A stretch of DNA of 64,000 nt, taken from the NCBI GenBank assembly GCA_015178975.1, contig WHVD01000008.1, positions 1,302,001 to 1,366,000 on the forward strand, written 5' to 3'. Origin of the DNA: Hysterangium stoloniferum. Taxonomy: Eukaryota > Basidiomycota > Agaricomycetes > Hysterangiales > Hysterangiaceae. Positions 15,491 through 53,700 of the stretch are shown piece after piece. The translations under genes and the position numbers were made by a program. Within the stretch, counting starts at the first letter, position 1. The number at the start of each line of letters is the position of its first letter. The notes beneath the pieces are model-generated. The model saw only the letters and a list, made by a program, of their open reading frames with translations. It was not told the DNA's origin and did no database searches.

Positions 15491-16080
15491 AGTATTGGAA
15501 GGATTTGGGAATTTTGCGAGGTGGAGTATTTATTGGAAGCGTCATGATCACCTGATACAACATATATATAAATGGGGAGCTTTGAAACTTAAAAAGCCAT
15601 TCTTGACGCTTTATCTAGTAAGTTTTACCGGTTCCAGCTCTGAGCCGTAAGCCGGGCTGAGCACGGCCCAAGGCCTGGCCTTGATGGTTCTCTTTCGTGC
15701 TGTTCTTAGACTGTATAACTTTCCGTTTGTCGGAGTGAGATGTGTTATAAATAAATACAACAGACCTTATGTAACCCAAGGACGTGGTGATTTCCAACAC
15801 CAGCGACCTGATACTTGTAATCCCTGGTCGACCCAAATCCCAGAAAAGTCAATATCTCTTCCATGGCATAACTCCTTGAAAATAGGCCAAAAGGTAACCC
15901 ACCTCCTCCTTGACATCTGCATTTTTCTTTTGTTGATCTTTATTTCCACAATTAGAAATTAGAAGTTCCTTTCTCTCCATTTTATTTTTTTCATACTAAT
16001 AACTTGGTTGGTGAATTCTTGAGATTTGTGGAAACATTTATGTAATCAGATGCCTGCTTCATTTCGTAGCAATATGATTG
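15491..16080 (+). repeat. 3' flanking block of BBE-like copy A
   Basis: Resembles the DNA after copies B (25419-25775) and C (48710-49155): a GGGAATTTTGCGAGGTGGAGT segment just after the stop, GATACAACATATATA, a GC-rich CCAGCTCTGAGCCGT..GCC segment, and ACCTTATGT..ACCCAAGGA. The part from about 15897 also matches 57418-57600 upstream of pseudogene D, so the ancestral unit carried a second oxidase locus downstream. Confidence 0.7.
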
Positions 16081-17776: not shown

Positions 17777-19830
17777 ATGTCGATTCGTCAACCATTGTTT
17801 ATCACTACCCTGGAAGATTCAGACGCCAAAATTTCTGTGCTCCAAAAAATGTCAAAGGTCGAAGAACTTCAATGAAAACAACAGAGGATGGAGGAGATGA
17901 AGTGACAACAAGAGGAGAAGGAAAAGGTGTTGATGTGGGAATTGAAGGAGGTGGAAGAGGTGGAAAAGTGTGAGTTGGAGCGGGTGAAGGTGGAAAAGGA
18001 GACATGGATGCAGAAAATGGTGGAGGATCGGAAGAAGAAGGATGAGGTGGAGAAAAAGCAGTGGGAGTCTGAGGTGGCAGAAAAGAGAGTGAAGGAGATA
18101 AGGGAGGGAAAGGTAAGTTAAAACAACAATTTTCCGGGTTTCATCTGATAACAATTGAACACAGTGAAAAGCTGTGGAGGTGGAGGTAAAGAGAGAGGCT
18201 GGGCCTTTGAGTCCCAAAGTAAGTGATTTTGTAAAAGGTCAGAAGTTGACTACTGTGGCTCAAAAAACTGTCCCAATGTTTTCTCATTTTTGAAAGGTTG
18301 GGTTGGCATGGATTACTGACATAAGCAGAGAATCTAAGTAAATTATCAAAGGTACTATAGGATCATGGCTTGAAGGTAAGCCTTGGTTCATGTGATTTGA
18401 ATCAAAACCCATTGAATAATAAATAAAACAAAACAGCTACTCATTGGGACAGTTTTTTGACTATGATTATTTTACTTTCTAGTACTTTGTATGCCCCCTT
18501 TTTCCTTTATAACTGCCCTGATCCTTCTAGGCATACTTTCTATTAGATATTGGCAGACTTCTGGTTGGATTGCATTCCACTCCTCCACCACTCTCTCCCA
18601 CAATTCATGTATTCCCTTGGATGATGTGTTATATTTTTGGAGTTGGCATTTGAGGTATTTCCAAAGATGTTCTATAGGGTTAAGATCAGGGGATTGGGGA
18701 GGCCAGGGTAGTACTTGAATTTCCTTGTCCTCAAACCATTTTGTGGCCTGCTGAGATGTTTCCTACCCTATTCCAACCCATACAACCCCATACCATGAGG
18801 TTATTTCCTCCTCCATGTTTGACTGTTGGTGTTGTAGTCCTGTCAGACACTGGTTCTCCTCTTTGTTTCCATACATATGACTTTCCATCTGACCTAATCC
18901 TGTTAATCTTTGTCTCATCTGACCATAACACCCTCTTCCAGTCCTCCACATTCCAATTTTCATGATATTGGGCAAATTTGAGCCACTTCTGACAATGAAT
19001 GGCTTTGAGAAATGGTCACTTTTGCTTTGTTGCAGAGTAAAATCCATTCTCCTTCAGTATATTTCTGACTGTTTGGGGAGTGACAGGGTTGGAGATGATA
19101 GAATCAATGAATTGGGTAGCCTGAACTGCATTATCAAGCTGTCCAGAGCTAATTTGATGGATTATTGACTGTTTGTCACAACCAGAAAGCTTGGAAGGAC
19201 GACCCCCAGGATTGTTCTCCTTGTTCCCATCCACTTCCCTACTAATTCTATTCACAGTACTCTTGCCTAGACCAGTTCTTTCCTGGATTTGGCAATAGGA
19301 ATAGCCTTCATTGAGGAGAGGGACAATAGAAGAGCATTGAGCAATAGAAATAGATCTCATGATGGTGGTAAGAAGTCAGGATGTAGTTGAACCACTTTAA
19401 ACCTGTCAAACAAATACAAATAAAGTCATGTGACATGTTTATTGTCCCACAGCCTCCCTCTGCCTGGTACTGGTCTATAACAGTAGGAACACAGGTCAAA
19501 AAGGGTCAAAAAACTGTCCCAATGAGTAGCTGTATTGTTTTATTTATTATTTAATGGGTTTTGATTCAAATCATGTGAACCAAGGCTTACCTTTAAGCCA
19601 TGATCCTATAGTACCTTTGATAATTTACTTAGATTTTCTGCTTATATCAGTGGTCCATACTAAACTAATCTTTCAAAAATGAGAAAACATTGGGACAGTT
19701 TTTTGAGCCACTGTAATTTCCGAAACAGAAACAAAAGGTCAAAGCTCCGGAACGGATGGAAGTTGTCCACAACAGTCTGTGTTATCGATGTTCAATTCAG
19801 AATTTGACTTGTAATTCAAGTAGGAGTTTA
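17777..19830 (+). pseudogene. Antisense chromovirus gene (coiled coil plus Cys cluster), third copy, split by Tc1
   Basis: Lies opposite to a minus-strand chromovirus relic, 184 bp inside its LTR. Exon 1 (17777-18112) starts MSIRQPLFITTLEDSDAK and runs into a Glu/Lys-rich coiled coil ending VKEIREGK, with two in-frame TGA codons where CGA would restore Arg. An intron begins GTAAGT at 18113 and exon 2 ends at about 18220 in a segment reading GPLSPK, like the copies in the chromoviruses. A Tc1 element is inserted at TA (18251). Beyond it, at 19716-19830, the next exon resumes with similarity to exon 3 of the full-length copy, including a CYRCSIQNLTC motif aligned with CNWCMKQGRTC. Pol is missing beyond it. 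Confidence 0.6.
18253..19713 (-). mobile_element. Tc1/mariner transposon with long terminal inverted repeats
   Basis: Complete element of 1461 bp flanked by TA on both sides. The ends (CTGTGGCTCAAAAAACTGTC on the left; the same with CAGTGG on the right) start inverted repeats of about 210 bp (18253-18465 and 19500-19713). The minus strand encodes a broken transposase: an N-terminal HTH region (MRSISIAQCSSIVPLLNEGY, GLGKSTVNRIS, GGRPSKLS), then SNPVTPQTVRNILKENGFYS, and in other frames VLWSDETKINRI, VKHGGGNNLMVWG. Frameshifts make it non-autonomous. It was inserted into the antisense gene of the older retroelement relic. Confidence 0.85.
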
Positions 19831-23264: not shown

Positions 23265-25418
23265 ATGCTTCGCTCAGTGCTCCAATTGTTAGCGTTTCCT
23301 TTGCCTTTGTCCTTGACAATTTCATCAGTTTCTGGGAGGTCCACATCCCAATGCTTCACACAACCTGGTGACCTACACTTCCCAACGGCAGCAGAGCTTA
23401 CCAGATTCAATGCAACAATAGACGGTCGCTTGATGAATGTTGTACCCTCAGTGAAATTTTGTCAGTCAATTGGTGGATGTTCTGAGGCTCAGTGGATCGA
23501 TGGGAATTTCAGAAATGATATTATCGGTGCGTTGCTTCAAGTACGTCTGTCCAAACTGGAATAATGTTCTGCTATTCGATTATCCTGTTGGAGCTGACAT
23601 ATTTTTGTAGTATAATTGGGAACAGGTAATACTGTTTTGACCACCAAACAATATCACAAGTAGCGATATTGATCATCCGTTAGGATTATACTTCTACTCC
23701 CCCCTCGCTTTGCTTGCGCAATGGTACCGTTTGTGGACAGGGGAATGTACCAATACTTGGTGTGAATGCCACTACTGTACAACATATTCAGGTAATATAT
23801 GCCCTTATTCCTTTTGACCACATGCTTATATCCCACTTTCAAGGCTGCCGTGCGATTCGCAAAATTTCATAACTTGAAAATTGTTATCAAAGCCTCCGGT
23901 CATGATTACTTGGGTCGTTCCACCGCGAAAAATTCCTTCCTCATATGGACGCGTCATCTCTTGAATGTGACTTTTCACGATTCGTTCATAGTGGGTGACG
24001 TCGATCAAGGGAGTGCTGTCACAGCTGGGAGTGGCGTTGGATTATCCACCTTATACGCGCTCACAAAAGAACAGGGAAAAATCTACGTGGGTGGCTCGGC
24101 TGCCTCGGTCGTTGCCTCTGGCGGATACGTCCAAGGTGCTGGTCACTCTATCTTGTCTCCGACATTTGGTCTCGCCGCCGATAATGCTTTGCGTCCGTCA
24201 TATTTCCTTGGGTGTAACAGACAACTAACCCTCTCTCCCAGAGTTCGAGATAGTAATTGCAAACGGCACTTTATTGACCGTCAACTCGGTTTCTAATCCC
24301 GATCGTGAATTATTTCATTTCACGGCGTAACGTGTCTCTAATACAGTATACCTTTAGTTTTTTGGGCCTTACGTGGTGGAGGCGCCGGTAGCTGGGGAGT
24401 CATAGTTAGCACAACATTCCGCACATTCCCCACCTTCAACGCTGTCTATCACGTGGCCAACATTATGGTCAATAATACGGATCAAGTCGCCCAGTTGACC
24501 ACACTTCACGCGAAACACATCTTCGACTGGGACACCCTTCACCCCGGCCAATATTTTGTCTGGATTGCGACTCCACCCACCTTCGCCTTGTCTATTACTT
24601 CCATCTTCCCGAACACTACTATTTCCTTAGCAACATCGGCTCTCGCGCCGTTCCTGAACGGTATTACGTCACTTGGTTTCAATGCTAATATCACATCCGG
24701 GATGTTACTCGTTAACGATTTATTCAGCGAGGTGACGACTGACGGTGGAGGTACATTAGGGATCCTCGGATCCAGGCTCTTGCCCTCATCGACCTACAAA
24801 AATCATGTCACTCAGATCGGTCAAGTCACTAAGCAATTGTTTGACGATGGTGCCGAAGGGTAAGGAACGTCTGATTACATGTGGGTAGGTCTCTAATGTA
24901 CTATTGTGCAGTGTGCTAGTGCACTTGGTCGCTGGAGGTTTGTCCCTCTCAGCCTATGATACAATTCCCTTGTGACAAATTTCGATTCGACCCTCAGGAC
25001 AGGTGTCCAAGAATGCCGATATTGACTCTGCAGTTACCCCCAAGTGGCGAACAGCCAAGACCCATGTAAGGGACTGATGCATCTTCAGATTTACATTAGA
25101 TATCAAGTAACGTTTCCCTAGGTTATTGTCCTGCAAGGCTGGAATGAGTCAACCAGCCCTAGTGAGGTTGAAGCTATTCGTGAAGTCGTGACGAACACGC
25201 GCGTCCCCCTTCTTTCAGCATTAGCTGGGCCTGACGGTGGAGCTTATTCGAATGAGGCTGACGTCCGGGAGCCTAATTTCCAGACAACATTCTTCGGACC
25301 CAACTATGGTCGCCTCAGCCAAATCAAGAAAGCCTACGATCCGGACGCGATGTTTATCGTACCAACCGGAGTTGGATCGGAGAATTTCGACGTCGATACG
25401 TTGTGTAGAGTAGATTAA
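23265..25418 (+). CDS. BBE-like FAD-linked oxidase, copy B (9 exons, 567 aa)
   Basis: Paralogue of copy A with the same exon pattern: 23265-23540, 23611-23625, 23684-23791, 23844-24192, 24242-24304, 24358-24859, 24912-24937, 24998-25065, 25122-25418, total 1704 nt in frame. Every exon has exactly the length found in A. The signal peptide, FAD-linking His in KASGHDYLGRS, GSGVGLSTLY, GGGAGSWGVI and the BBE tail (FGPNYGRLSQIKKAYDPDAM) are present. Intron 4 starts GTCCGT rather than GTACGT, still a legal donor. Differences from A are scattered, mostly conservative substitutions such as PSGG to ASGG and NDIFGA to NDLFSE. A functional, probably secreted enzyme is likely; substrate unknown. Confidence 0.93.
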
Positions 25419-25775
25419 AATATTGAAGGGATTTGGGAATTTTGCGAGGTGGAGTATTTATTGAAAGCGTCATATCACCTGATACAACATATATATACAT
25501 GATGGGGAGCTTTGAAACTTAAAAGGCCATTCTTGGCGCCTTATCTAGTAAGTTTTACTGGCTCCAGCTCTGAGCCGTGAGCCGGGCCAAGCTGGGCCAT
25601 GCTCAACGGCCCAAGGCCTGGCTCTTGATGGTTTTCTTGTTGAGCGTTTCGTGCTGTTCCTAAACCGTATTTGTGGGAGTGAGATGCATTATAAACAAAT
25701 ACAAACAGACCTTATGTAACCCAAGGATGCAGTGATTGCCAACAGCAGTGACCCAAACCCCCTGATCCTTGTAAT
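25419..25775 (+). repeat. 3' flanking block of BBE-like copy B
   Basis: Matches 15491-15830 and 48710-49080, then stops abruptly after CTTGTAATCC, where retroelement DNA begins. This marks the left edge of the large transposon nest. Confidence 0.65.
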
Positions 25776-31706: not shown

Positions 31707-32444
31707 TGTTACAACTGTGTCGCAACCCTATCGGTCCCCGAGGTTATCGCCACTTATCGACGATTCAAGTTACTACTCAAGTTACCACATTGGAAACCAT
31801 TGGCCCCCGAAGCTGACATACACTTTCGCGATGATCAAACTCCGTTTACGCCCATGTCAAAATATACTCATACTATCCGGTTAAACTTTTGATACATCCC
31901 TTTTATTATCATGATCCGTTCTATCCTATGTTTCACATGTCTATCTATATTTGTAGTCCTCGAACTATTTCCTTTTTCCCTAATTCCGCTCTCAGATATC
32001 TCTTTGGCCCCTGAACTAATCATAAACTTCCCGTTCCTAGTCAAGCTTATTGTTAATACCATTTTCTGCCTTTCTCCCTGTTAGTATTTTCTAGATGCCT
32101 GTTACTTGTATATGAGTCCACTGTAGTTGTAGTTACTAGGCAATCAGAATATCGACTCAGAATACCCTCATAAGTCTGTAACAGTCTCATACTAAGGATC
32201 CCCTCATCTGCCTTCACGTGCGCTCGCCCACTCCCGGCCCCGACCCCTTGGCCCGACACTCGACTTGTCCTTCGGTCCCGATCGGTATCTCACCAAAAGG
32301 AACTCTTTAGGATTAGTCTTTGCCCATCTGAAATTTAAGGACACACTACGGATATTTGTGAGGGTGTAGCACATAAGCTGAAGCCAAGTCCTTCCGATCG
32401 GTCCCTGTTGGCCACCGACATTAGTCAGTTTTCAGTTCTTAACA
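31707..32444 (+). repeat. 5' LTR of the chromovirus
   Basis: 738 bp, similar throughout to 38655-39394, with scattered transitions such as TCGCAACC against TCACAACC. It starts TGTTACAACT and ends TTCTTAACA. Confidence 0.9.
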
Positions 32445-32482: not shown

Positions 32483-33783
32483 ATGCCTCCGAGAAAAAAA
32501 GATGCCAAGCCAAGCGGCAAAGCAGAATCTTCCACTCTCAAGTCTCCTTTCCTGTATACAGCCCAAGCTACTCAGAGAACCCCGGTACCAGAAACCTCCG
32601 AAGAATCTCGCTTTTGGAGATTACTGGCAATGCTGAAGAAGTAACTGAAGCAACCAAACCTGAAGCAACTGAAGAGGTTAACAACCAACCAGCTCTGGAA
32701 CACAAACCCGAGGATGGCGACCAACCTCAGACTAGTGGTTCCAAGAAGTCCACGAAAAAGAAACTGGCTCTCGACCCTGAAGAGACATGGGAATTGTTCT
32801 CAGGTACCCTAGGATCCCTTAACGAATTCCTTAGAAGCAATATCAAGGAAAAGGAACCTGGGCAAACCCGAGTTAACAAACCCGAACCATTCACTGGCTC
32901 AAACCCGAAGAAATTGCCGACATTTCTTATGCAATGTCGATTCAACTTTCGGGACCGCCCGGCTGCATTCGCAACGGATGACCGAAAGGTAAACTTCACA
33001 CTCTCATACCTTAAGGATTCCACAGCAGCCTGGTTTGAACCCGCATTCTCTGGCCTCACCTCCGAAGACCCTGATTGGCTTCACGATTGGGATGCCTTTG
33101 TTGAGGAACTCGAAACCAACTTCGGTCCCTACGACCAAACCGGCGATGCTGAAACTGCGCTTTCTAATCTCAAAATGAAAGACACCCAGCGCATCACCGA
33201 TTACATCGTCCAGTTCAACAACCTCGCCGCGCATTGCGACTGGGGCGATTCAGCCCTCCATTACCAGTTTTACTCTGGCCTCCTGTCTCGCCTCAAAGAC
33301 GAAGTTTCCAAAGGAGAGACTGGCAAACCGAAGACCCTCCCTCTCATGCATCTGAAAGCCCAAAATGCAGATGCCCAATACTGGGAACGACATTCGGAAA
33401 TTAGTCACAAAAACCCCTCGGACAAGAAATCATCGGAACAATAAGAACGCCGACAAGTCTGGTAATCAAAACACCAACAACAGTGGCAACTCGACCTCCA
33501 ATAAGAAGTCCGAAACAAAGGGTCTAACGACAAAAAAGGCAAGGGCACACAGTCAAATAAGTCTCAAGATAAAGACAAACCTGACTTAACTGGCAAACTC
33601 GGCTCCGATGGCAAGCTCCTACCACAGGAAAAGCAACACTGAATGGACAACAACCTTTGCTTGTTGTGCACAGATCCCGGACACTGAGTCACCACATGCC
33701 CAAAAGCCACCAAAGCCCGATCGGCCAATATAGCCACGACCTCACAACCAGCTAAGCCGGCTGCCGAGTCGAAAAAAGATTAA
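32483..33783 (+). pseudogene. Chromovirus gag
   Basis: Likely start MPPRKKDAKPSGKAESS at 32483. A frameshift near 32610 moves to the frame of 32614-33444, which holds the capsid-like domain (LPTFLMQCRFNFRDR, YLKDSTAAWFEP, FVEELETNFG). A further change of frame leads to a zinc knuckle at about 33650-33705 (CLLCTDPGH.VTTC), where the expected Arg or Trp codon is TGA (33685). Another TGA lies at 33640. Confidence 0.8.
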
Positions 33784-36700: not shown

Positions 36701-37407
36701 CTGAATTCGCATATAACAATGCACTGAACGCCACTACTGGCATTTCACCTTTCTTTGCAAACAAAGGCTACAACCCCAACATCACAATCCACCCGGAACG
36801 CGATCTCGCATCTGCCCGTGCTCAAGACTTTGTTACAAACCTTGACGAGCTACATCAAGAACTTCGTAAAACTATTGCAATGGCTCAAGAATGATACTAA
36901 TGGTCTGCGGATAAGAACCGACTTCCGCCTCCTGATTTCAAGATCAGAGACCAAGTATTCGTTAAAGCCAAGTTTTTCTGAACTACTAGACCCTCTAAGA
37001 AGCTCTCTGAAAAATATTTAGGTCCTTTTGAAGTTATAGCACAAGCCGGCACGCTTTCATGGACACTTCGGCTCCCTGACAACATGTGTGCAGTGCACCC
37101 AGTATTTCATGTATCCATGTTAGAACCTTGTGTTGCTAGCAGTATACCGGATCGCATACAACTACCACCTCCACCTGTGATCATTGATGGAGAACCCGAA
37201 TTCGAGATATCAGAGATCCTAGACTCAAAAATTGATAATCGCTGACGCTCATGCAAATTACTTTATTTGGTTAAATGGGCTGGCTATGAAGGTACAGATG
37301 AAGAAACTTCATGGATCCTAGCTACAGAGCTCGGTAATGCCTCGGAAATCGTTTTAGGGTTTCACCAAGCCTATCCGAATAAACCCGGTCCTCTAAATTC
37401 TTTATAA
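33784..37407 (+). pseudogene. Chromovirus pol (protease, RT, RNase H, integrase, chromodomain)
   Basis: Protease active site at about 33940 (ALIDSGSTHCFID). RT at 34530-35290 with [42 protein letters not shown] and the catalytic [12 protein letters not shown]. RNase H from 35480 (IVETDASDYALAAIL) after a frameshift near 35355. Integrase: [12 protein letters not shown] and [13 protein letters not shown], then the core with TSDRGSEFVS and GYHPEGDGQTEHMNQ. The chromodomain at 37255-37400 reads LLYLVKWAGYEGTDEETSW. In-frame TGA codons at 33930, 34744, 34864, 35287, 36347, 36892, 36979 and 37243 mostly stand where Arg is expected. About 87 bp of the integrase core, with the first catalytic Asp, are missing near 36435 relative to the outer copy. 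Confidence 0.88.
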
Positions 37408-37495: not shown

Positions 37496-38481
37496 CTACC
37501 TAAAGGTTTCCTCCACAACCTCTCCTTCCTCCCCGGCTTCTGAACCTCCTCCCTTACCGACAGCCACTGATACTGCTCCACCGACCTTTTCCGATACCCC
37601 AATCTCGTGCCCAACCCCATCGCAACTCGAGACTTCTAAATACTGCTCAAGTTGACCTCCAAGGGACTGGATAATGCTGGTCTGCTTCTCCAGCTCGATG
37701 CCCAAAAGTCACAACTGTTCGGTCATGAGCCCTTGTTGTCGCAGTGTCTCGAATAGGAACCTTGTCATCTCCGAGAAGTAAGTCCGCATAAGGTGGTTTT
37801 GCTCTTCCAGAGCATCGGCCTGTCACTCCTGGAACGATCTGTCGGCCCCCGGGAAGACACATCCAAGCTTCTGATCGGCACACTCTTGACAAGTGCAGCC
37901 CCGACCATTGGCCCGAGGATGGCAAGTTCGACCCTGTTTCATGCACCAGTTGCACTTAGGGTCATTTTCAGGCCCCGCCTTTGGGGCTGCTTTTGTTTCT
38001 AAATAAAATAAAAAAATTATTAGAAAAGTTTTTATTTAGGAAACCAAACCCACCTTGGGGCTCAACGGCCCCAGTGCATCCTCCTCGTCCTCCTCTTCGT
38101 CATCAGACTCCGAAGGCGTCGCAGCCTTGTGCTGAAAAAAATATATATATAAGTCAGCAGGGTTCGCAAAAGATACCAAAGCTTTCCCTCCCACTTCTTC
38201 TTTGCCACCTCCTCTCATGCCCAATCGGCCTCCTGCTGCTTTTTCTTCGCAAGTACTGCATCCCAGTGCTTGCACGCAGCCTCCTCTGCTGCCAGCTTTT
38301 TCTCCTTGGCCTTGATGGCCGCCAACTCCTCTCTCTCCTTCCACTCCTCCTCTTCACACGCCTTCCGTTTTCCCTCGAGTATGCGATGACGTTCCTGCAC
38401 GTTAGCTGGTCCACTTGGGACCGACATAGGGGTGACCGTTAACCAAACCGGGAAGGGTTTCGACCCCGAACCTATGGTCAT
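37496..38481 (-). pseudogene. Antisense gene in chromovirus: coiled coil plus Zn2Cys6-like cluster
   Basis: Runs opposite to gag-pol, from 173 bp inside the 3' LTR back to just past the pol stop. A TATA-like box (38532-38538) precedes the ATG at 38481. Exon 1 codes for a short N-terminus and an Ala/Glu/Lys-rich coiled coil (EREELAAIKAKEKKLAAEEA). Exon 2 (38050-38131) is acidic and ends GPLSPKV. A 51-nt intron (37999-38049) precedes exon 3 (37496-37998). Exon 3 carries cysteines spaced CX2CX6CX10CX2CX6C (CNWC, RTC, CTCQEC, LGC), the spacing of a fungal Zn(II)2Cys6 DNA-binding cluster. A second helix-rich region follows (LEEQNHLMRTYFSEMTRFLF). Three in-frame TGA codons and an unclear first-intron donor suggest a recently dead copy. 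Function unknown; a regulatory or DNA-binding role is inference. Confidence 0.72.
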
Positions 38482-38531
38482 GGTGGTGGAGGGAAGAGAA
38501 GTGGAAATTCAAGTGGCAGGACCCCTCGAAT

Positions 38532-38538
38532 TTTTATA
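38532..38538 (-). promoter_or_regulatory. TATA-like box of antisense gene
   Basis: TATAAAA on the minus strand, about 50 nt before the ATG at 38481, between that ATG and the 3' LTR. Confidence 0.45.
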
Positions 38539-38654
38539 TGTAATTTTTGCCAAGTCACATGATGTTTTGACACACCCAACCGTACCCAACGAGCTTTTAC
38601 GTATGGGATCTAAATTTTCGGCCTCCTTGGGATTTTGGCCAAAAGGGGAGATAC

Positions 38655-39394
38655 TGTTATGACCGTGTCACAACCCTATCGGTCCCCAAGGTTATTGCCA
38701 CTTATTGACGATTCAAGTTACTACTCAAGTTACCACATCGGAAACCATCGGCTCCCGAAGCTGATGTATGCTTTTGCGATGATCAAATTCCGTTTACACC
38801 CACATCAAAATATACTTGTACTATCTGGTTAAACTTTTGATACGTCCCTTTTATTATCATGATCCATTCTATCCTATGTTTCACATATGTCTATCTATAT
38901 TTGTAGTCCTCGAACTATTTCCTTTTTCCATAATTCTGCTCTCGGATATCTCTTCGGCCCCTGAACTAATCATAAACTTCCCGTTCCTAGTCAAGCTTAT
39001 TGTTAATACCATTTTCCGCCTTTCTCCCTGTTAGTATTTTCTAGACGCCTGTTACTTGTATATGAGCCCGCTGTAGTTGTAGTTACTAGGCAATCAGAAT
39101 ATCGACTCAGAATACCCTCATAAGTCTGTAACAGTCTCATACTAAGGATCCCCTCATCCGCCTTCGCATGCACTCGCCCACTCCTGGCCCTGACCCCTTG
39201 GCCCAACACTCGACTTGTCCTTCGGTCCCGATCGGTATCTTACTGAAAGGAACTCTTTAGGATTAGTCTTTGCCCATCTGAAATTTAAGGACACACTATG
39301 GATATTTGTGAGGGTGCAGCACATAAGCTGAAGCCAAGTCCTTCCGATCGGTCCCTGTCGGCCACCAACATTAGTCAGTTTTCAGTTCTTAACA
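38655..39394 (+). repeat. 3' LTR of the chromovirus
   Basis: 740 bp, starts TGTTATGACC and ends TTCTTAACA, preceded by a purine tract. It is followed by the target duplication GATGA and then by the continuation of the outer element. Confidence 0.9.
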
Positions 39395-39399
39395 GATGA

Positions 39400-40699
39400 C
39401 TGCATTTATGTCCTGGACTCTGACACTCTCTGACTTAGAGTTCTGCAACATAATCACAACCACCAAATCTCGGGACATTTTGGACTCAATAAGACTCTTG
39501 TGCTCATTCACAGAGAATATACATGGCCTGGACTCTGAGATTTCACTAAGCATTATTGTAAATCTTGCACAACCTGCTTATGCTCCAAATCCCAGCATCA
39601 CAAACTGCATGGCCTACTCAAACAACTACCGATACCAGAAAAGCCATAGAACTCCATATCAATGGATTTCATCAAACACCTACTGGCATCCAAAGGCTAT
39701 ACTGCAATCCTGGTTGTTGTGGATTGGCTTTCCAAGCAAAGTATTTTCATTCCCACATATGACACAATAACATCCATACAGTTGGCAGAACTATTTGTCA
39801 CTCATCTATCTTCCAAGCACAGAATCCCATCACATGTCACATCCAATCACGGATCTGAGTTTGTCTCCATTTCTTTCGGTCCCTCAGAAAAGCACTTGAC
39901 ATGAAACTTCATTTCACCTCTGGATATCACCTGGAAGGCAACAGACACACTGAGTGCACAAATCAAACATTGGAACAATACATTCACATCTATTGTAATT
40001 ATCAACAAGACAATTGGACATCACTACTACTGCTTGCCGAATTCACATATAACAATGCCCTGAATGCCACTACTGGCATTTTGCCTTTCTTTGAAAATCA
40101 CAGAATGTGATCTCGCATCTGCCCATGCAAATCTTGATGAGCTTCACCAGGAACTCCAAAAAAACATTGCATCAGCTCAAGAATGGTATCAACATTCTGC
40201 AGACAAAAATCAGCTTCTGCCTCCTGACTACAAGATTGGCGACTGAGTCTTCATGAAAGCTGAGTTTTTCCAAACTACTAGACCATCTAAAGAGCTTGCT
40301 GAAAAGTTTTTAGGACCTTTTGAGATTATAGCACAAGCTGGAACAGTGTCATATACCCTTTGGCTTCCTGACAACATGTGAGCAGTACACCCAGTTTTCC
40401 ACATTTCCATGTTAGAACTACATGTTTCTAACACTATACTGGACTGCATACAACCTCCTCCACCACCTATTACCATTGACAGAGTACCCAAGTTTGAAGT
40501 ATCAGAAATCCTTGATTCAAAAATTGACAATCACAGATGTACTTGCAAACTACTCTACTTGGTTATATGGACTGGTTATGAAGGCACAGATGAAGAAACT
40601 TCATGGATCCTTGTCACAGAACTTGGAAATGCCTCAGAATTGGTTATAGATTTTCATCATGCATATCTGAACACACTTGGGCCATTAAGCTCCTTTTAA
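39400..40699 (+). pseudogene. Outer chromovirus integrase and chromodomain
   Basis: Continues exactly where 31706 stops. H2C2 region near 39440-39590, then a core fragment that keeps the segment missing from the inner copy (GYTAILVVVDWLSKQSIFIP, with the first catalytic Asp). It continues SNHGSEFVS, HTECTNQTLEQYIHIYCNYQ and LLLAEFTYNNALNATTG. The chromodomain near 40545-40690 reads LLYLVIWTGYEGTDEETSW. Frameshifts and stops break it; the changes from the inner copy are mostly CG to TG or CA. Confidence 0.8.
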
Positions 40700-40825
40700 A
40701 AATAAAAACCCCTCAGACCCCCATCCATTTCCAATTTTTTGTACTTTTCAAGTCATTGTTCTCACTTATGTTTTCCGACATTGTCTGAGTAAAACCAAAT
40801 GATTATTTCAATACCCAATAACTAA

Positions 40826-41641
40826 TCATAACATCTCAACTCCCCCTTCAATCTCCTGCACCTCAGCCTCCACTCTACCCTGAGAACCATCAGCCCCTGA
40901 CACATCCTCTGATTCCCAGACCTCCAAGCCCCACTCTCGAGATGTCATTTCTAAGTATGTCTGGAATTGGGCCCTCACATGACCCATCCTCTCAGATCCC
41001 ATGGACCTCTGATAACAGTAGTTGGTGCTCCTCTTCCTGCACCAGCATGGACACCTTTCACAGGCAGTTCTGTTCCTCCAGAGCCTCGGTAAGCCACTCG
41101 ATGAGGGCATTGGTGACTCCATTGGACCCCAGCCACATGCTAATTTGGAAGAAGTGCACTTGTAACAAGTATGCCCCACCCCTTTGGTTTGTGGCATGGT
41201 TGCTTGCATGCGACACACCAATTGCACTTGGGAATGTTTTTAAACCCCATTTCGAGTGTCTGCTTGTATTTCTGTCAAAATGTTAGTCAACAGAAGACCA
41301 ACCAACTCCATACACACCTTTGAGCTAGGAGAGCCCACCTCATCCTCTTCACCTTACACTGGTAGCTGTTAGAAGCTTCGGAAACCTGAGTCAAACAAAT
41401 CACTCACCTTCCATCCTTCCCTCTTTTTCTTCAACCTCTCAACTTCTGCTGCTGCCTCCCTTGCCTTCTGCTCAGCCTCTTCGACCTCAGCAACCCTCAG
41501 TACCTCTGCCACCACCCATTCTTCCTTCTCACACAGCAACCAGTGCTGTTCCATCCATCATTGCATTTCCTCAAGTCCCAGAATTCCACTGGAACCCACA
41601 TCAGTTTTCTTTTGGAATGTAGGTGTGGGTTTAGGAGCCAT
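40826..41641 (-). pseudogene. Antisense gene of the outer chromovirus
   Basis: Same place and orientation as 37496-38481: the ATG at 41641 (MAPKPTPTFQKKTDVG) is 187 bp inside the 3' LTR. Exon 1 (41408-41641) is a Glu/Ala-rich coiled coil (EQKAREAAAEVERLKKKREG) ending at a GTGAGT donor, with one TGA where Arg would fit. The distal exon, in changing frames, shows PKCNWCVACKQPC and then TCYKCTSSKLACGWG, matching the cysteine pattern of the inner copy. Several frameshifts. Confidence 0.62.
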
Positions 41642-41828
41642 TGGGGGGGTGGAAATGGTAATAAAGAGAAATAGAAAAGTGTTTTTTTCTCTTATGTACA
41701 TATAATTCTTGATTAAACTGCCAGGTCACCTGACACTTTGACACATACCCAGGTTACCAACTAATTTTGATATATATGTAAAAGCACTTTTTCGGCCTCC
41801 TTGGGAACTCAGCCAAATGGAGAGGTAC

Positions 41829-42133
41829 TGTTACAACCTGTGCTTGGGGAGGACCTCCAAGTCACCTAACATTGCCCCACATTCTCGGATACTCATCAGA
41901 TACTGAACTTCCTTTTTAAGCCATCTTCTTGTGTCCCAAATAGTACATCTGTATGTTCCAAATATGTCATGTCTTTTCATCCCAATATGTATTCTCCAAA
42001 CCTTGGAAACTTGTACCTGTCATATTCCTGATTAAGTAACAGCCTTGTTCTGTTTTCAGTAGTCAATTAATTTATTCCCATCATTGGCCCTCCAACTAGA
42101 GCATTCTCCCTCCTCCAGGCTTAGATCTTAACA
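41829..42133 (+). repeat. 3' LTR of the outer chromovirus
   Basis: Follows a purine tract (AATGGAGAGGTAC), starts TGTTACAACC and ends TCTTAACA, 305 bp. The body differs from the inner LTR, so the two belong to related but distinct families. The end abuts a copia-like LTR at 42134. Confidence 0.6.
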
Positions 42134-44141
42134 TAGCAGAAGACCCTCACAACCATGCAGGGAGCTCTATTTGCATGTAGCCAAGTGCTATATAAACTAA
42201 AAGAACAATGGAATACTAGAAAGGGAAGACAATGGGAACAGTGGAAATGCTAAAATATGTAATAAGGGGAATAATGGATAAACAAACAAAGGGAACTTGG
42301 AAGAGTGACATAAGCTTGGATGATGCTTGAAATCTAACACCCCCCCATGAGTTCATACAAGTGAGAAAAGGGAATTACCAAATATAATCACAAATACATC
42401 CTCCTCAAAATAAGAAAATATCTGTATGCACCCCCACAAATCATACAAGGATTAAAATACTCCTTCACTTTTGGAATCACTGTCACTATTTGTGAAGTGT
42501 CAGGCTCATGGGTGGGTCTCTGAGGGAAACCCATGGAAGTTCTGGGGAAGGACTTGGCTTCAGCTTATGTGCTGTGCCCTCACAAGACCACATTGTCCAA
42601 CTTCAGACAGGAGCAGACAGGAAACCCATGGGTTCTGAGAATACACTGAGGCAGATACTAAGTCAAAGCTAAGTTGATTTTCTGATCAGATTGTAAGTAC
42701 AGGTAGTAGCTAGTAGATTATTTATCCAGAGATACAAAAGAACATAACAGGCATACAATAAGACAATAAACCAGATGTCAAATGGGCAAGGATGGATTGG
42801 GAACAAGGGGTCTGGGATGTCTGGGTGGAGTCCAGTGGCTAGTTTGTGTGATATAGAGTCAAATACCTATAGGATGGGTTCTGGGTCCTGGCAGGTTATC
42901 CAGTCCTAATACTATTGCTCATAATAGCCAATGCAGCACCAAAGTTTTTATGCTTGTTTGTTTCTTCTCCTTCTCCTTTAAGTAGGCCAATCTCTCTGGA
43001 CACTCTGACTTGTAGTGCCCAGTCCCATCACACCAGAAACACATATGATCCAAAGGCACAGCCTTCACATTGCTGCCTTCAAAACATCATCCATCACCAT
43101 GGGAGCTGGAAACAATCATTGCCTCTTCCTTGGCCTCACCTTGACATCAGTATGCTTTCCAGATTCCTGATGGGCTTCCTCATTAAGAAGGTGAGTAATG
43201 ACATGATCCAGTGTCAGCAACTCTGTTGCAGTAGCATCAAAGTTAATTATGACTGCATCATAAACTGTCAGAAGTCCCATAATCAGTGCGAGAGTTACAT
43301 ATATCTTGCTCCAAACTCTCAATCCCAGCTTTCTGCAATCTGAAGGACAATCCCTTCACCATTCCAATCCATGTCTGCATTGACAAATCTGTTGTTTTCT
43401 TCATTGTCAAGAATTTGCAGCATAGTGTGAGACTAGTAGCAAAACCAGCAGCATGGTGAACACACTCCAATGTCAACCAAATTTCCCTTGGATCCTGAGA
43501 GTGCATCTGCAATGGCTGCCCATCATTGACTAGCAATATCATTTCTGCCTGAGCCTCTTCCATTTTATCTTGATCTCCGGCTTTCAACTCATCATCACTA
43601 GCTGACTTCCCCTGCTCTGGCACTGGTGCCACAACATTAACCACTCTCCAAAGTTTCCTTCTGATTAAATAGGCTTCCATTCTTACAGCCCATTCTGCAT
43701 AGTTTGTGTCATTGAGGCATGGGAAATGGATGGTCATAGTTTCAGACATTGGGAATAAAATGTGTAGATATCTTCTTCAGTTCTTCAAATTTTAGTCGAA
43801 ATCAAAGTTCTCTTGGGCCTCTACAGCTTGAAGGTGCTACAACCATTAAGACCAAGCAAGTTGGAATGTCATGAAGGAGAATGGAGGGTATGCAGTGCAA
43901 TTGTGTTGAAATATGTGTGTCTCTATCACATACTCAGGTAGCAGAAGACCCTTGCAATTGCACAGGGAACTCTATTCACATGTAGCCACACATATAAACT
44001 AGAAGAACAATAGAATACTAGAAAGGGAAGACAATGGGAACAGTGGAAATGCTAAAATATGCAATAAGGGGAACAATGGATAAATGAACAAAGGGAACTT
44101 GGAAGAGTGACATGAGCTTGGATGATACTCAAAATCTAACA
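42134..44141 (-). mobile_element. Copia-like element remnant (gag only), minus strand
   Basis: Direct repeats at 42134-42339 and 43939-44141 (about 205 bp, about 90% identical by eye) start on the minus strand with TGTTAGATTT and share CTAGAAAGGGAAGACAATGG. Between them lie a copia-type gag on the minus strand and a second LTR-like stretch at about 42480-42905. Pol is absent. No target duplication was seen. Confidence 0.6.
43116..43749 (-). pseudogene. Copia-type gag polyprotein (UBN2 type), partial
   Basis: The minus-strand ORF starting at 43749 reads MSETMTIHFPCLNDTNYAEW, then RMEAYLIRRKLWRVV, PREIWLTLECVH and LSMQTWIGMVKGLSFRLQKA. This is the N-terminal retrotransposon gag of Ty1/copia elements, whose usual features are a WxxWxxxM-like start and an LxxLF-type helix set. 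A frame change near 43260 continues in the 43116-43322 frame (NFDATATELLTLDHVITHLL). The zinc knuckle and pol are missing. Confidence 0.7.
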
Positions 44142-45238
44142 CCTGGAGTTCCATGGAGTTCTGGACATTGAGCAGGCACAATGAGCAAAGAAGTAGGTTA
44201 GACTAATCAAAGACTAATTTGAGATACAAACTGGGGAGGTAAGTACATGACTATGTATCACAACTATCACAAAACATCAAAACATACAAGATCAATTTTG
44301 ATAACTCTTTGACTCAACTTCAACAAACCTTTGACTCAACAAACATTCCACTTTATTCGACAACTTTGACTAATCTTCAACTTGTCTCATTTCAATGTCA
44401 TGAATAATTTCATTCTTAAGTCAAAAAATAATCATAGGTAAATGATGAAAGGCATAAAAGGACAATGATAAGAGCAAGGGAAGTCAGTTGGAAAATCTCA
44501 ACCTCATCTGTATATTAGTAATTGTATCAATAATCTGAGTCTCATATAATCATAACACTTTGACATTTTATGTATCTGTGAGCCTTTGCATCTGGTATTT
44601 GCTTCTCACTTCATCAACAGGACAAATTTATACTTCATTGAATAATGCTTCTCAACTCAATTTAATAGAATATTATTTGATTAGTATTTGACTTTATTGA
44701 GAAACATCTGATTCATGTCACTATGGAAGACTATAGTTGTTCCAATTATTGTATTACAAATCTGAAAGCATAATAAAACACATTTGGAAATGTTTCCAAT
44801 CAAGCATATAATAATAAGTCAGATAAATGAGGAACAAGAATGGGGGAATCAGGGAATAAGGGCAGGAACAATAAACAATAAACAAACAAATGAACATTTG
44901 TCAATCACTCAATTACTAAATGTGAGATGAAGGAATCAAGTCAGAATATCCATGGGATATCTGATATTATCCATAAATGGATTACTGAAGCATCTATAGG
45001 AACACTGGGAGTCCAGCCAGAGTCCAGGTTGGAAAATGACCAAGGACACTTGGAGATGCTAGCTGGGAAAGGGTGGAGTCCAATGGGTTCCAGGCCATAT
45101 CATAAAATGTCTAGTTATGAGCAGAATATCTAACTGGGGACTGAGGTTAAGGGTACTTGAGAGATGAGGGTCAGGTTCCAGTGGATTCCTGATATTGTAT
45201 CTGGAAAATACTCTGTGGAGTTCCTGGGAATAGATCTT
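44142..45238. other. AT-rich transposon debris
   Basis: No gene. The part at 45000-45200 has GTGGAGTCCAATGG-type segments like 19990-20360 and 42780-42900, so it is probably an LTR relic. Confidence 0.4.
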
Positions 45239-46558: not shown

Positions 46559-48709
46559 ATGCTTCGCTCAGTGCTCCAATTGTTAGCGTTTCCCTTACCT
46601 TTGTCCTCGATACTTTCATTAGTTTCCGGGAGGTCGACATCCCAATGCTTCACGCAACCTGGGGACCCACGCTTCCCAACGGCAGCAGAGCTTGCCAGCT
46701 TCAATGCGTCAATTAACGGTCGCTTGATGAACGTTGTGCCTTCAGCAAATTTTTGTCAATCCCTTGGTGGATGTTCTGACGCTCAGTGGACCGATGGAAA
46801 TTTCAGAAATGATATTATCGGTGCGATGCTTCAGGTAAGTCTTCCCAAACAGGAATGCTGTTCTACTATTCGAGTACCCTGTTAGAGCTGACATATTTTT
46901 TTAGTATAATTGGGAACAAGTAATACTGTTCTGACTACCAAATAATATCACGAGTAGCGATATTGATCATCCGTTAGGATTATACTTCTACTCCCCCATC
47001 GCTTTGCTTGCGCAATGGTACCGTTTGCGGACAGGGGAATGTACCAATTCTTGGTGTGAATGCCACTACTGTAGAACATATTCAGGTAATATATGCCCTT
47101 GTTCCTTCTTAATCACATGTTTATATCCCACTGTCAAGGCTGCCGTACGATTCGCAAAATTTCATAACCTGAAAGTTGCTATCAAAGCCTCCGGCCATGA
47201 TTTGTTGGGCCGTTCCACCGCGAAAAATTCTTTTCTCATATGGACGCGCCATCTCTTGAATGTGATTTTTCACGATTCGTTCACAGTTGGTGGCGTCGAT
47301 CAAGGGAGTGCTGTCACAGCTGGGAGTGGCGTTGGATTGCATACCTTATACACACTCACAAAAGAACAGGGAAAGATTTACGTGGGTGGCACGGCTTTCT
47401 CGGTCGTTGCCTCTGGCGGATACGTCCAAGGTGCTGGTCACTCTGCCTTGTCCCCAACATTCGGTCTCGCCGCCGACAATGCTTTGCGTAGGTCATATTT
47501 CCTTTAGCTTAACAGCCAACTAACCGTCTCTCAGAGTTCGAGATAGTAATTGCGAACGGCACTTTATTGACCGTCAACTCGGTTTCTAATCCCGATCGTG
47601 AATTATTTCTTTTCACGTCGTAACGTATCTCTAATACACTATGCTTTCAGTTTTTTGGGCCTTACGTGGTGGAGGCGCCGGTAGCTGGGGAGTCATAGTT
47701 AGCACGACATTCCGCACATTCCCCACCTTCAACGCTGTCTATCACGTGGCCAACATTATGGTCAATAATACGGATCAAGTCGCCCAGTTGACCACATTTC
47801 ACGCGAAACACATCTTCGACTGGGACACCCTTCACCCCGGCCAATATTTTTTCTGGATTGCGACTCCACCCACCTTCTCCTTGGCTATTACTTCCCTCTT
47901 CCCGAACACTACTATTTCCGCAGTGACAGCGGCTCTCGCGCCATTCCTGAACGGTATCACGTCACTTGGTTTCAATGTCAATATCACATCTGGGGTGTTA
48001 CCTGTTAACGATATATTGGCCGGGGCGACCACTGACGCTGGAGGTACATTACGTATCATCGGATCCAGGCTCTTGCCCTCATCGACCTACAAAACTCATG
48101 CCACTCAGATCGGTGAAGTCACTAAGCAATTATTTGACGATGGTGCCGCAGGGTAAGGAACGTCTGAGTACACGTGGATAGGTGTCTAATGTACTACTGT
48201 GCAGTGTGCTAGCGCATTTGGTCGCTGGAGGTTTGTCCCTCTCAGCCTATGCTACAATAACCTCCTGACAAATTTTGATTCAACTCTCAGGACAGGTGTC
48301 CAAGAATGCCCATATTGACTCTGCAGTTACCCCCAAGTGGCGAACAGCCAAGACCCATGTAAGGGACTGATAGATCTTCAGATTTACATTAGATCAAGTA
48401 ACGTTTCCTTAGATTATTATCGTTCAGGGCTGGAATGAGTCCATCAGCCCTAGTGAGGTTGAAGCTATTCGCGAAGTCTTGACGAATACGCACGTTCCCC
48501 TTCTTGCAACATTAGCTGGCCCTGACGGTGGAGCTTATTCGAATGAGGCTGACGTCCGGGAGCCTAATTTCCAGACAACATTTTTCGGACCCAACTATGG
48601 TCGTCTCAGCCAGATCAAGAAAGCCTACGATCCAGACGCGATGTTTATCGTACCAGCCGGAGTTGGATCGGAGAATTTCGACGTCGATACGTTGTGTAGA
48701 GTAGATTAA
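46559..48709 (+). CDS. BBE-like FAD-linked oxidase, copy C (9 exons, 567 aa)
   Basis: Same architecture as copies A and B: exons 46559-46834, 46905-46919, 46978-47085, 47139-47487, 47535-47597, 47651-48152, 48205-48230, 48291-48358, 48413-48709, total 1704 nt in frame with no internal stop. The signal peptide, KASGHDLLGRS (Tyr to Leu after the FAD-linking His-Asp), GSGVGLHTLY, SGGYVQGAGHSALSP, GGGAGSWGVI and the BBE tail are kept. Relative to A and B this copy differs in the ND-I-A region (NDILAGATTDAGG) and at THTLYTLT. The 15-nt exon 2 (YNWEQ) is preserved. Intact and probably functional; substrate unknown. Confidence 0.93.
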
Positions 48710-50752: not shown

Positions 50753-53700
50753 TCAAAATAGAGTCTGATATGTTAATTGGTTATGAAAAGAATTCACAAA
50801 AAATCTATCGTGCTTATCAAGACAAGTGTGTTCATCAAAATTAAGAGGAGGCAAGGTCTTTGATTTGGGAAATCTTGGAACTAAGGAGCATGGCTGCACA
50901 ATCCAGTTCAAAGGAATTACACCTCCCTCCTTCTGGTTATTCTTGTTAACAAGTTGCTTTACTTCATACATATCAATATATTTGACTGTCTCTGCTTTAG
51001 GCTTTGAGAACCATTCAACATAGGCCAAAGGTTCATATTTTTCATTCTGGCCAGTAATTAGCTTGTTTGTCATGGGGTCATGTGCTGCTCTGAAGATAAG
51101 TTTCAAATGTCCAATTCGAAGACCTATAATTGAATTGAATTCATTAAATAGTATTATAAGATGTTTTGATAACTCAATGACTTACCATTCATGCCATTTT
51201 GTTGGGTCCCTATGTCACTCTGCTCATCAATGACAACAGTATCAAAACATGGTATAGAGCTTTTGGAAGTCTTTAGTCTGGCAAGCACCCCACATCGTTC
51301 ATTAGAACCATTGTATACTCCAACTATTGGTAGTTCAATGGACACTCTACTCCAGATAGCTAATGTATTCCAGTGTTCAGGTAGGTGAAATGTTAAGGCA
51401 TTTTGATTTAGCTGTCGAGTTGTAATGTCTTTATTTTTGAGTCTGATAAGATACTTCTTCAACTCCATTTCAAATTGTGGTATAGAATAATCATCAGTAA
51501 CCTTTTGAATAGGCACTTGTGAAAAAGGTGGCCGTTTAGCAATGGCATGAGATGATTTAGTTTGTAGTGCATGGAGTTTTGGCTTGAACCTTACAACACT
51601 CAGTTGATTACTTTGTGGTAACCTTTCTTCCTCACTCTCAGCTAGATTGACATTGATTTCACAAATTTCCTCATTTGATGTGTCTGAACTAGTTTGCAGT
51701 AGGTTTCCTGTCCAATCATTATTTAGCCACCGAAGATACAAACTGTGCTGTTGAATTTTGTCCTGTCTGGTGAGCCAAGTGATCATTTGAGTTATATAGT
51801 CTTTGTGATTTGTGTGCTCAAATGCTGACTTGACAAGGTCAATGTGATACCGTTCAGAAATCTCTGTACTATAATTATTAGTAGCACCAACCCAGCGTAT
51901 GTGTTCTGGATAGTGCTTCCGACAATGTTTCTTTGGAATAGCCCAATGATCATCACCTCTTTTCAAGGTACGACCACCCTCTGTGACAAATGCTTCTCGA
52001 TGTAAATCATAGATCTCATCAAATTCTGTAAGCCTTTGCAAGTCTGCCTCTGTGAGATGTGTCCACTGAGCAGTGAAAATAAAGTCCAATTCAGCCCTGA
52101 CAGCTTGAACAATTTCATTGCTTGTAGCACCATAAATTGCAGGAAGAAAAGATCTTTCAAGATCTTTCCATTCCCGTCCTGACCATTGTGAAATTTTTGA
52201 TATTCCTGAGCTAAAGTGCCTGTACCCATGCTCCTTTGGTAGCCGACGGAAGCGTTTGTCAAGTTCAAAATCACCAATGATGTTCCTACACCATTTAGCT
52301 GTGTGATCATAGAAAGCTTTATGCAATCCATGCAAAACATCATTGCAGATAACTTTACAAATATCTGTGTGTGGGAGATCTTCCCAGAATGGATACTCCA
52401 CCCCACTTAATTGAGCTTCCTTAGCTGCAGTAATAAAAGTCCATGTATCAGCATTGACCCCAACATGCCTACGAACTGTACATATCTTCTCCAAAATACT
52501 ATGAGCTGTCCGTGGTGAGCAAATATGAAGTTCTCCTAAGTTCTTGGTTTCAGCAAGGCAGGTTGTACATGAGTTTTTCCCAAGACATGCAATTAGTGTT
52601 TGCTCTTCTTTATCAGCCAAATACAGTACAAGGAATATTTGGTGTTCTCGTAAAAGTCCTTTGGGATCTGGGATCCAAACAGGAATTTTTCCTGCATGTC
52701 TCAGTGGCTCCACAACTATTTTCATGCATGTGTGAAAAAGGCATGCTTGCAACCTTCCTGGAAATTGATTGTCTTTTGTTTTTGTGGGAAATTCAGTTTT
52801 GCCAAATTTGCAAACTGGGATAAATCCCACAAGCATGAAAGCAAGCTTGCTTGGTTGATTTCGAACAGTTGAATCTATATGCCCACTAGAAGCATAAATT
52901 GGATGAACTTTGCCATCACCAGAAAAGTTTGTTACATGTGTGGCATCAGATGCCAAAATAGCAGGAAGTACTGTAACACCTGGTGGTACCTTTGTTTGCA
53001 GTTCCAGCCAGGCATCTCCAGTGTAGATATCACCATAAACACGACCAGCATCAGATAGCTCTTCATTTGAGTACCAAAGGATAGGTTCATAATTCATAGC
53101 ATCCTCAAATGCTGGATTCTGTTCCAGGTAACTCAAACATTCAACTAGATCACGATAGTATAAAATCTGTGGTTCATTGGGAGCTTCAGGTAAAACCACC
53201 TCCTTTGAATGCCATTCTGGACCTGCTTGCAAAAATTCATCAATACGTTTCCACATCTCTTGAGCTGTCTTGAAACTTGGCTGGTGTTCCATTTCACTGA
53301 TCTGACAAGTAGGTTAGTACTGAATCAATATAACAAGCAACTAATATACCCATTTAGTTTTTAAAAAGGCATCAATCTCAGCATTTGAAATTCCACAAGT
53401 TCCAAGCCATTCAACCAGACTCCACTCAGCCTCATCTGCAAATGGGAATGCAGGTAAATCGGGGGTGGTGGTTGTTCGATGAAGCTTTTGGAAAACAGTC
53501 TCACAAGTACCATGGACTGTGGATGCATCTGGAAATGGTCTTGCCTCAAATATATCCATACCTTTAGTGTTGGAAGTAGAACTCTGTCTAATAGGAGGTA
53601 GTTCATTTGGATAGAGTTCAACAGAAGGCTCTTGTGGTAGTTCCAAATGGAAGGTATTGACATCCTTGTCCTGAATATCTATGTCCATGAACTTGTTTGG

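Follow-up and report, generated by a model that had tools for sequence, protein, structure and literature searches.

The question raised by this locus is whether a reading frame lying opposite to gag-pol in a chromovirus that fills much of the genome of the truffle-like fungus Hysterangium stoloniferum is a genuine gene and, if so, what its product might do for the element that carries it. We analyzed a 64-kb stretch of DNA (G000:C533:1302001-1366000; hereafter the window), part of a 111-Mb genome, in which an inner chromovirus, assigned here to family A, is nested in an older element of family B. The antisense gene of the inner element runs on the minus strand from its ATG at 38481 to its stop at 37498-37496, with the antisense stop 88 bp from the sense stop of pol and the ATG 174 nt from the 3' long terminal repeat (LTR), which starts at 38655. 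This is the arrangement known as aORF-3R, i.e., an open reading frame (ORF) antisense to gag-pol between the pol stop and the 3' LTR. The initial annotation of the window had placed an intron-containing antisense gene between the chromodomain and the 3' LTR, and its coordinates hold. We found that the gene is protein-coding and under selection, and that its introns and conserved reading frame are common to three chromovirus families.

To describe the gene, we compared the window copy with 39 fetched copies of family A, giving a sample of 40 scored from 286 first-look candidates; all copies were retrieved by searching with the gene itself, and element copies without the gene fall outside this sample. 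The gene is about 294 codons long, with three exons and two short introns, all on the minus strand. Exon 1 (38182-38481; 300 nt) encodes the N-terminal MTIGSGSKPFPV and a charged stretch that looks coiled-coil-like by eye, and ends in EGK. Exon 2 (38054-38131) encodes an acidic stretch and ends in SPK, while exon 3 (37496-37998) holds a six-cysteine cluster with the spacing CX2CX6CX10CX2CX6C (37859-37954), a heptad-like stretch, again recognized by eye, and an acidic tail. Basic runs (KKKREGKRKA and SPKKQK) are found at the exon joints. Intron 1 (38132-38181) has a GTRAGT donor in 39 of the 40 copies and a YAG acceptor in all 40, and intron 2 (37999-38053) runs from GTGGGT, kept in 40/40, to TAG, kept in 39/40. 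The only copy to have lost the intron-1 donor is that of the window, which is also dead on other grounds, i.e., a single base missing near the start of exon 3 and TGA codons, one of them in exon 1. Thus, the copy singled out earlier as the best preserved does contain the gene, but in a broken state.

Conservation across the sample was high at the positions on which a spliced protein would depend. The ATG was kept in all 40 copies, and cysteines 1 to 6 of the cluster in 40, 39, 40, 40, 40 and 39 of them, respectively. Relative to one copy, only 38 gaps were found in the exons (885 bp), compared to 170 in the two introns (about 100 bp). The gene adjoined at least 600 bp of pol in 35/40 family A copies. 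A protein search with exon 3 gave 602 candidates; of the 150 that were scored, about 69, counted by eye, lacked a stop. A divergent exon 3 copy (G000:C203:26101-26472), at 83% identity, has an open frame of 196 aa.

We then set out to assess selection on the reading frame. Across codon positions 1, 2 and 3, per-site diversity was 0.082, 0.083 and 0.185, and transversion diversity was 0.014, 0.010 and 0.036, with values of 0.052 and 0.024 in the two introns and 0.050 upstream. The ratio of nonsynonymous to synonymous substitution (dN/dS), pooled over copy pairs in the true frame, was 0.223, with a range of 0.188-0.273 over 30 bootstraps that resampled codons (sites) and not phylogeny, the copy pairs not being independent of one another. 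By part, the ratio was 0.217 for exon 1, 0.347 for exon 2 and 0.208 for exon 3. When read in the shifted antisense frames, the same DNA gave 1.037 and 0.995, and the sense frames gave 1.062, 0.322 and 1.215, each with stops in 40/40 copies; the sense frame at 0.322 mirrors the true frame, their third positions facing each other. A chance or shadow ORF is ruled out by these frame controls. One control speaks against reading the ratio at face value, since non-coding flank and LTR treated as codons gave 0.588, 0.698 and 0.776; the neutral baseline can thus lie below 1, yet it stays well above 0.22. Of the tests proposed with the initial annotation, two were run, namely whether dN/dS is near 1 and whether the region shadows a sense ORF, and the gene withstood both.

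For comparison, the 3' end of pol (289 codons in 35/40 copies, comprising an integrase part identified by eye and the chromodomain) had a dN/dS of 0.211, a constraint matching that on the antisense gene. The match suggests that few descendants came from elements in which the protein no longer worked, and it argues against a gene that is only carried along.

Despite this constraint, many individual copies are interrupted, with at least one stop in the true frame in 30 of the 40 and 49 stops in total. Of these 49 stops, 44 were TGA at columns where arginine is commonest, which points to CpG decay after insertion; the observed/expected CpG ratio averaged 0.77 over the gene in the 40 copies, compared to 1.07 in the recent copy L073 (gene plus flank). 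Among 37 copies spliced by motif, six had a frame that was open all the way from the ATG to its usual end (288-294 aa), and a further two were open through the cluster and the heptad-like stretch, with altered tails. This count omits the window copy, L046 and L047 for motif mismatch, although L046 nonetheless has a GTGAGT donor. Six copies of a younger subfamily (97.3-99.85% identity across 1.3 kb) were fetched, of which five carried an uninterrupted gene of 292 codons and one stopped after 209; the six were chosen for looking alike and open, and five of six is not a rate. These copies show that the gene was intact in elements that have multiplied recently.

The same gene is present in two further families within the window. 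In family B, i.e., the older outer element, it occupies 40826-41641 on the minus strand and is frameshifted, whereas a relic of family C on the plus strand is split, with exon 1, intron 1, exon 2 and the start of intron 2 at 17777-18250 and the end of intron 2 plus a truncated exon 3 at 19716-19830. This second piece retains only half of the cluster (CX2CX6C, reading CYRCSIQNLTC). The three-exon plan recurs in families B and C, as does the SPK/K joint between exons 2 and 3, and exon 1 again has a basic end. Between A and C, the clusters aligned without gaps at 37% identity (E 8e-5 in a single comparison; 32% and E 6e-4 with another copy), and A and B were 45% identical from the end of the cluster into the region that follows (E 7e-7). 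The spacing CX2CX6CX10CX2CX6C was found in both A and C, the C version being assembled from L068 and the window relic; more of the family C cluster is visible in L068 and L069 than in that relic. Three copies each of B and C were fetched, none of them open throughout, and exon 3 of L068 was open. In L065, L066 and L068, representing families B and C, the gene likewise lies antisense between pol and the 3' LTR. Since the exon joints and the cluster spacing are common to the families, the three window copies are, on comparison of their sequences, descendants of one gene and not independent inventions. The initial annotation was therefore right to see one gene in three copies, but not in calling the copies independent; similarly, the cysteine cluster that it ascribed to all three is complete in family A, and the third relic keeps its first half only.

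Intron 2 of the family C relic contains a Tc1/mariner-like element (18251-19715) whose arms are 93% complementary and which has TA on both sides; most of the 40 candidates scored in a search there match this element, many at 92-98% identity. Two NCBI gene models, P0001 and P0003, span both exon joints, and the DNA of P0003 has the two introns where they were expected. Another H. stoloniferum protein, P0006, matches 64% of family C exon 3 at 58% identity and probably represents a further subfamily of the antisense gene.

We also looked for relatives of the protein elsewhere. Across about 5.8 billion proteins, the searches yielded six matches, all from H. stoloniferum, and no homologue outside Hysterangium; they detect only proteins that have 5-residue words in common with the query, annotation often follows masking of repeats and one search scored only the 7986 candidates with the most words in common, and absence of the gene from other species is not established by them. 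No Botrytis protein was among the matches. An IMG/VR scan with P0001 and a PDB sequence search gave no match, nor did the TRP28 domain (PF04195) at E <=10, which places the protein outside the Retand TRP28 family. The gene is described nowhere in the open-access literature searched, and the term "antisense" is absent from both PMC3248453 and PMC6317226. The few fragments of the gene that are annotated carry the name "hypothetical protein".

A named fungal counterpart, said in the initial annotation to be lacking, does exist. The element Boty and its gene brtn were reportedly described by Zhao and colleagues in 2011. In Boty of Botrytis cinerea, according to passages of PMC7264820 and PMC8365987, the antisense gene brtn is located between pol and the 3' LTR, and a passage of PMC4227169 attributes a CHROMO domain to Boty-like gag-pol, so that the kind is known also from a fungal chromodomain element. 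Boty is thus alike in being a fungal LTR element with a CHROMO-domain gag-pol and an extra antisense gene before the 3' LTR, but its host is an ascomycete and ours a basidiomycete, and the likeness is one of description, not of brtn sequence. A second comparison is with HBZ of human T-cell leukemia virus type 1 (HTLV-1), a deltaretroviral protein of basic leucine zipper (bZIP) type that has a spliced form and a leucine zipper; it has no zinc cluster, and we claim no homology with it. HBZ and APH-2 of HTLV-2 are antisense gene products described, in the passages available, as nuclear and important in the virus life cycle (PMC11963269), with the antisense promoter in the 3' LTR (PMC7264820). The antisense position is common to both, and a nuclear protein and an antisense promoter, here next to the 3' LTR, are predicted for our gene.

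In plants, the same two sources list antisense ORFs (aORFs) in Grande (gene23), RIRE2, Retand (TRP28) and PvRetro13, and for Grande they report an own promoter and a nuclear protein; a regulatory role is proposed (PMC7264820, PMC11963269; passages). For Retand, the passages of PMC11963269 give 97% of clusters with antisense ORFs bearing TRP28 and draw a comparison with HBZ. Retand belongs to a non-chromovirus lineage, and its aORF has the TRP28 domain that the gene studied here does not match; the word "intron" is absent from the plant aORF review (PMC7264820), in contrast to the two introns here. As far as our literature searches show, the new features are the basidiomycete host, a pair of introns whose joints are conserved in all three families, the six-cysteine cluster and a measured constraint as strong as that on the pol 3' end.

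We therefore turned to the nature of the protein. The usual spacing range of Zn2Cys6 clusters is CX2CX6CX(5-16)CX2CX(6-8)C, and the family A cluster falls within it. In Gal4-type factors a heptad-like stretch follows the cluster, and the antisense protein is alike in both respects. Cluster spacing, heptad-like stretch, basic runs and acidic tail taken together resemble a small Gal4-type factor. Several results weigh against such an identity. The Pfam Zn_clus profile (PF00172) did not match the protein, and over the whole genome, in which many other loci exceeded the cut-off, only one of 150 exon-3 places, the divergent copy on contig C203, matched, at a sub-threshold E of 1.0. With a dN/dS of 0.268 over 38 codons, the cluster is no more constrained than exon 1 or exon 3, and in 7/40 copies a stop falls within it. 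In L068 of family C, the first cysteine is replaced by tyrosine. A structure model of 54 residues built from three sequences reached a predicted local distance difference test (pLDDT) score of 61.5, a low confidence at which it was not used; it places two short helices over the CxxC pairs, and its comparison with the PDB gave no match below E 7. The nuclear signals, coiled coil and acidic domain are likewise calls made by eye. Finally, the protein has diverged between families far more than the chromodomain ends, which a plain DNA-binding factor need not show. Since the profile gave no match, the cluster is not tighter than its surroundings and the fold model is of low confidence, we label the protein only as zinc-cluster-like, judged by its sequence, and do not file it in PF00172; unlike Zn2Cys6 factors, it lies outside the Pfam profile and is retrotransposon-borne.

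The region between the LTR and the ATG contains several conserved motifs, all on the minus strand and all motif matches only, i.e., predicted elements and not evidence of transcription or binding. A TATA-like box (38531-38540) is present in 39/40 copies, 58 nt before the ATG in 37 of those 39, and an E-box-like CATGTGA (38555-38561) in all 40. Family B has the same order of motifs, with CAGGTGA in three of the four copies seen (L065, L066 and the window at 41700-41760 among the loci). CATGTGA or CAGGTGA upstream of the TATA in A and B is a possible host basic helix-loop-helix site. Beside the polypurine tract (38641-38653, plus strand, by eye) lies a conserved block, GGCCRAAATCCCAAGGAGGCCGAAAA (38615-38640), which is a candidate half-site repeat. 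The block GGCCGAAATCCCAAGGAGGCCGAAAA was found in 36/40 family A copies, with CpG-type (C/T, G/A) variants, and the exact repeat GGCCGAA-N10-GGCCGAA in 11/40, the window copy not being among them. A similar block is present in family B and a partial one in family C, whose upstream region holds GGCCGAAGTCCCATAGAGG and TATAAAAA.

How might such a gene serve its element? On balance, we lean towards a nuclear, dimeric DNA-binding protein that would act on the element's own LTR/promoter region and so tune expression or silencing of its family, by analogy with HBZ or the plant aORFs. In this scheme, the TATA-like promoter adjoining the 3' LTR would give a spliced antisense mRNA, whose product would enter the nucleus, dimerize and bind the LTR/promoter region of its own element; transcription, nuclear entry, binding of zinc and DNA, and regulation are all steps that we infer. 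By established logic, the introns would survive retrotransposition: reverse transcription copies the sense RNA, in which these stretches are not introns and are not spliced out. A more specific form of the proposal, which we consider less likely than not, is a spliced antisense zinc-cluster factor that would be a fungal counterpart of HBZ. Its dimers would bind the GGCCGAA half-sites by the polypurine tract, so that the LTR of each family would be switched or protected by that family's own protein, with protein and binding site co-evolving between families.

The strongest rival, because of the CpG decay in old copies, is an anti-silencing factor, comparable to VANC of the Arabidopsis VANDAL elements, that would bind members of its own family and either prevent or undo their methylation or RNA-directed silencing. 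We consider it unlikely, even though the TGA stops at arginine columns and the lowered CpG ratio of old copies compared to L073 agree with it and the fast divergence between families fits an arms race; the protein and Pfam searches found no similarity to a named protein. A still less probable alternative is a co-factor of integration or nuclear import that travels with the complementary DNA or Gag and aids entry or target choice beside the chromodomain. A constraint as strong as that on the pol 3' end, together with the basic runs at the exon joints, is in keeping with this role, and passages of PMC7264820 link plant aORF proteins to nuclear entry of the preintegration complex, but an own TATA-like box and splicing would put the protein outside the Gag-Pol programme. 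That the functional product is the antisense RNA, as a double-stranded RNA trigger or as an antisense regulator, seems very improbable: antisense transcripts of retrotransposons may act as RNA (PMC7264820), yet the codon-position pattern, the depletion of exon indels and the dN/dS of 0.22, which by itself disfavors antisense RNA alone, need selection on a protein. Least credible are a host gene captured once and passively carried and a reading frame that shadows a sense ORF by chance. Although some LTR elements do pick up host genes (PMC7264820) and capture is possible as the gene's origin, purifying selection across copies, the same joints in three families and intact recent copies speak against passive carriage, and the stops in every sense frame refute a shadow.

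In the passages available, LTR antisense genes are those of plants and deltaretroviruses plus one ascomycete case; to these, a basidiomycete chromovirus lineage adds an old, spliced and selected antisense gene that is intact in recent copies. The gene is also an example of how a retrotransposon can accommodate introns, namely on the strand opposite to the genomic RNA, which does not splice them. Its protein is small and defined and a candidate binding site lies close by, which makes the gene a system for asking what antisense proteins do. If the preferred reading were true in the form of a family-specific zinc-cluster factor, each chromovirus family would control or protect its own LTR.

The element that hosts the gene is a chromovirus, with a Ty3/gypsy gag-pol and a C-terminal chromodomain. 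Its LTRs (5', 31707-32444; 3', 38655-39394; plus strand) are 93.5% identical and flanked by a 5-bp target duplication, GATGA, which precedes the 5' LTR and follows the 3' LTR. The gag gene (32614-33444, plus strand) matched Retrotrans_gag (PF03732). The pol gene is broken; its chromodomain end and sense stop lie at 37246-37407 on the plus strand, with the frame stop at 37405-37407, and this broken piece matched PF00385 at E 7e-4, under the curated cut-off. The same holds for the broken family B piece, while PF00385 exceeded the cut-off in family C (L068). Within gag-pol, the Pfam scan covered gag, the chromodomain and the integrase piece, the last of which was identified by eye and had no match. 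The 3' part of the family B element, from pol to the LTR edge, spans about 39403-41830.

Other features of the window include a long, open Plavaka transposase ORF (51154-53292, minus strand; PF18759, E 9.5e-83) and a Copia-type gag ORF (PF14223; 43258-43749, minus strand), with near repeats at 42190-42341 and 43992-44143 that are 93% identical. Three oxidase-like ORFs resemble one another (13805-15668, 23799-25598 and 47004-47507; flavin adenine dinucleotide type by eye), and the first two are each followed directly by a copy of duplicated DNA, the copies lying about 9.9 kb apart and sharing 90-98% identity.
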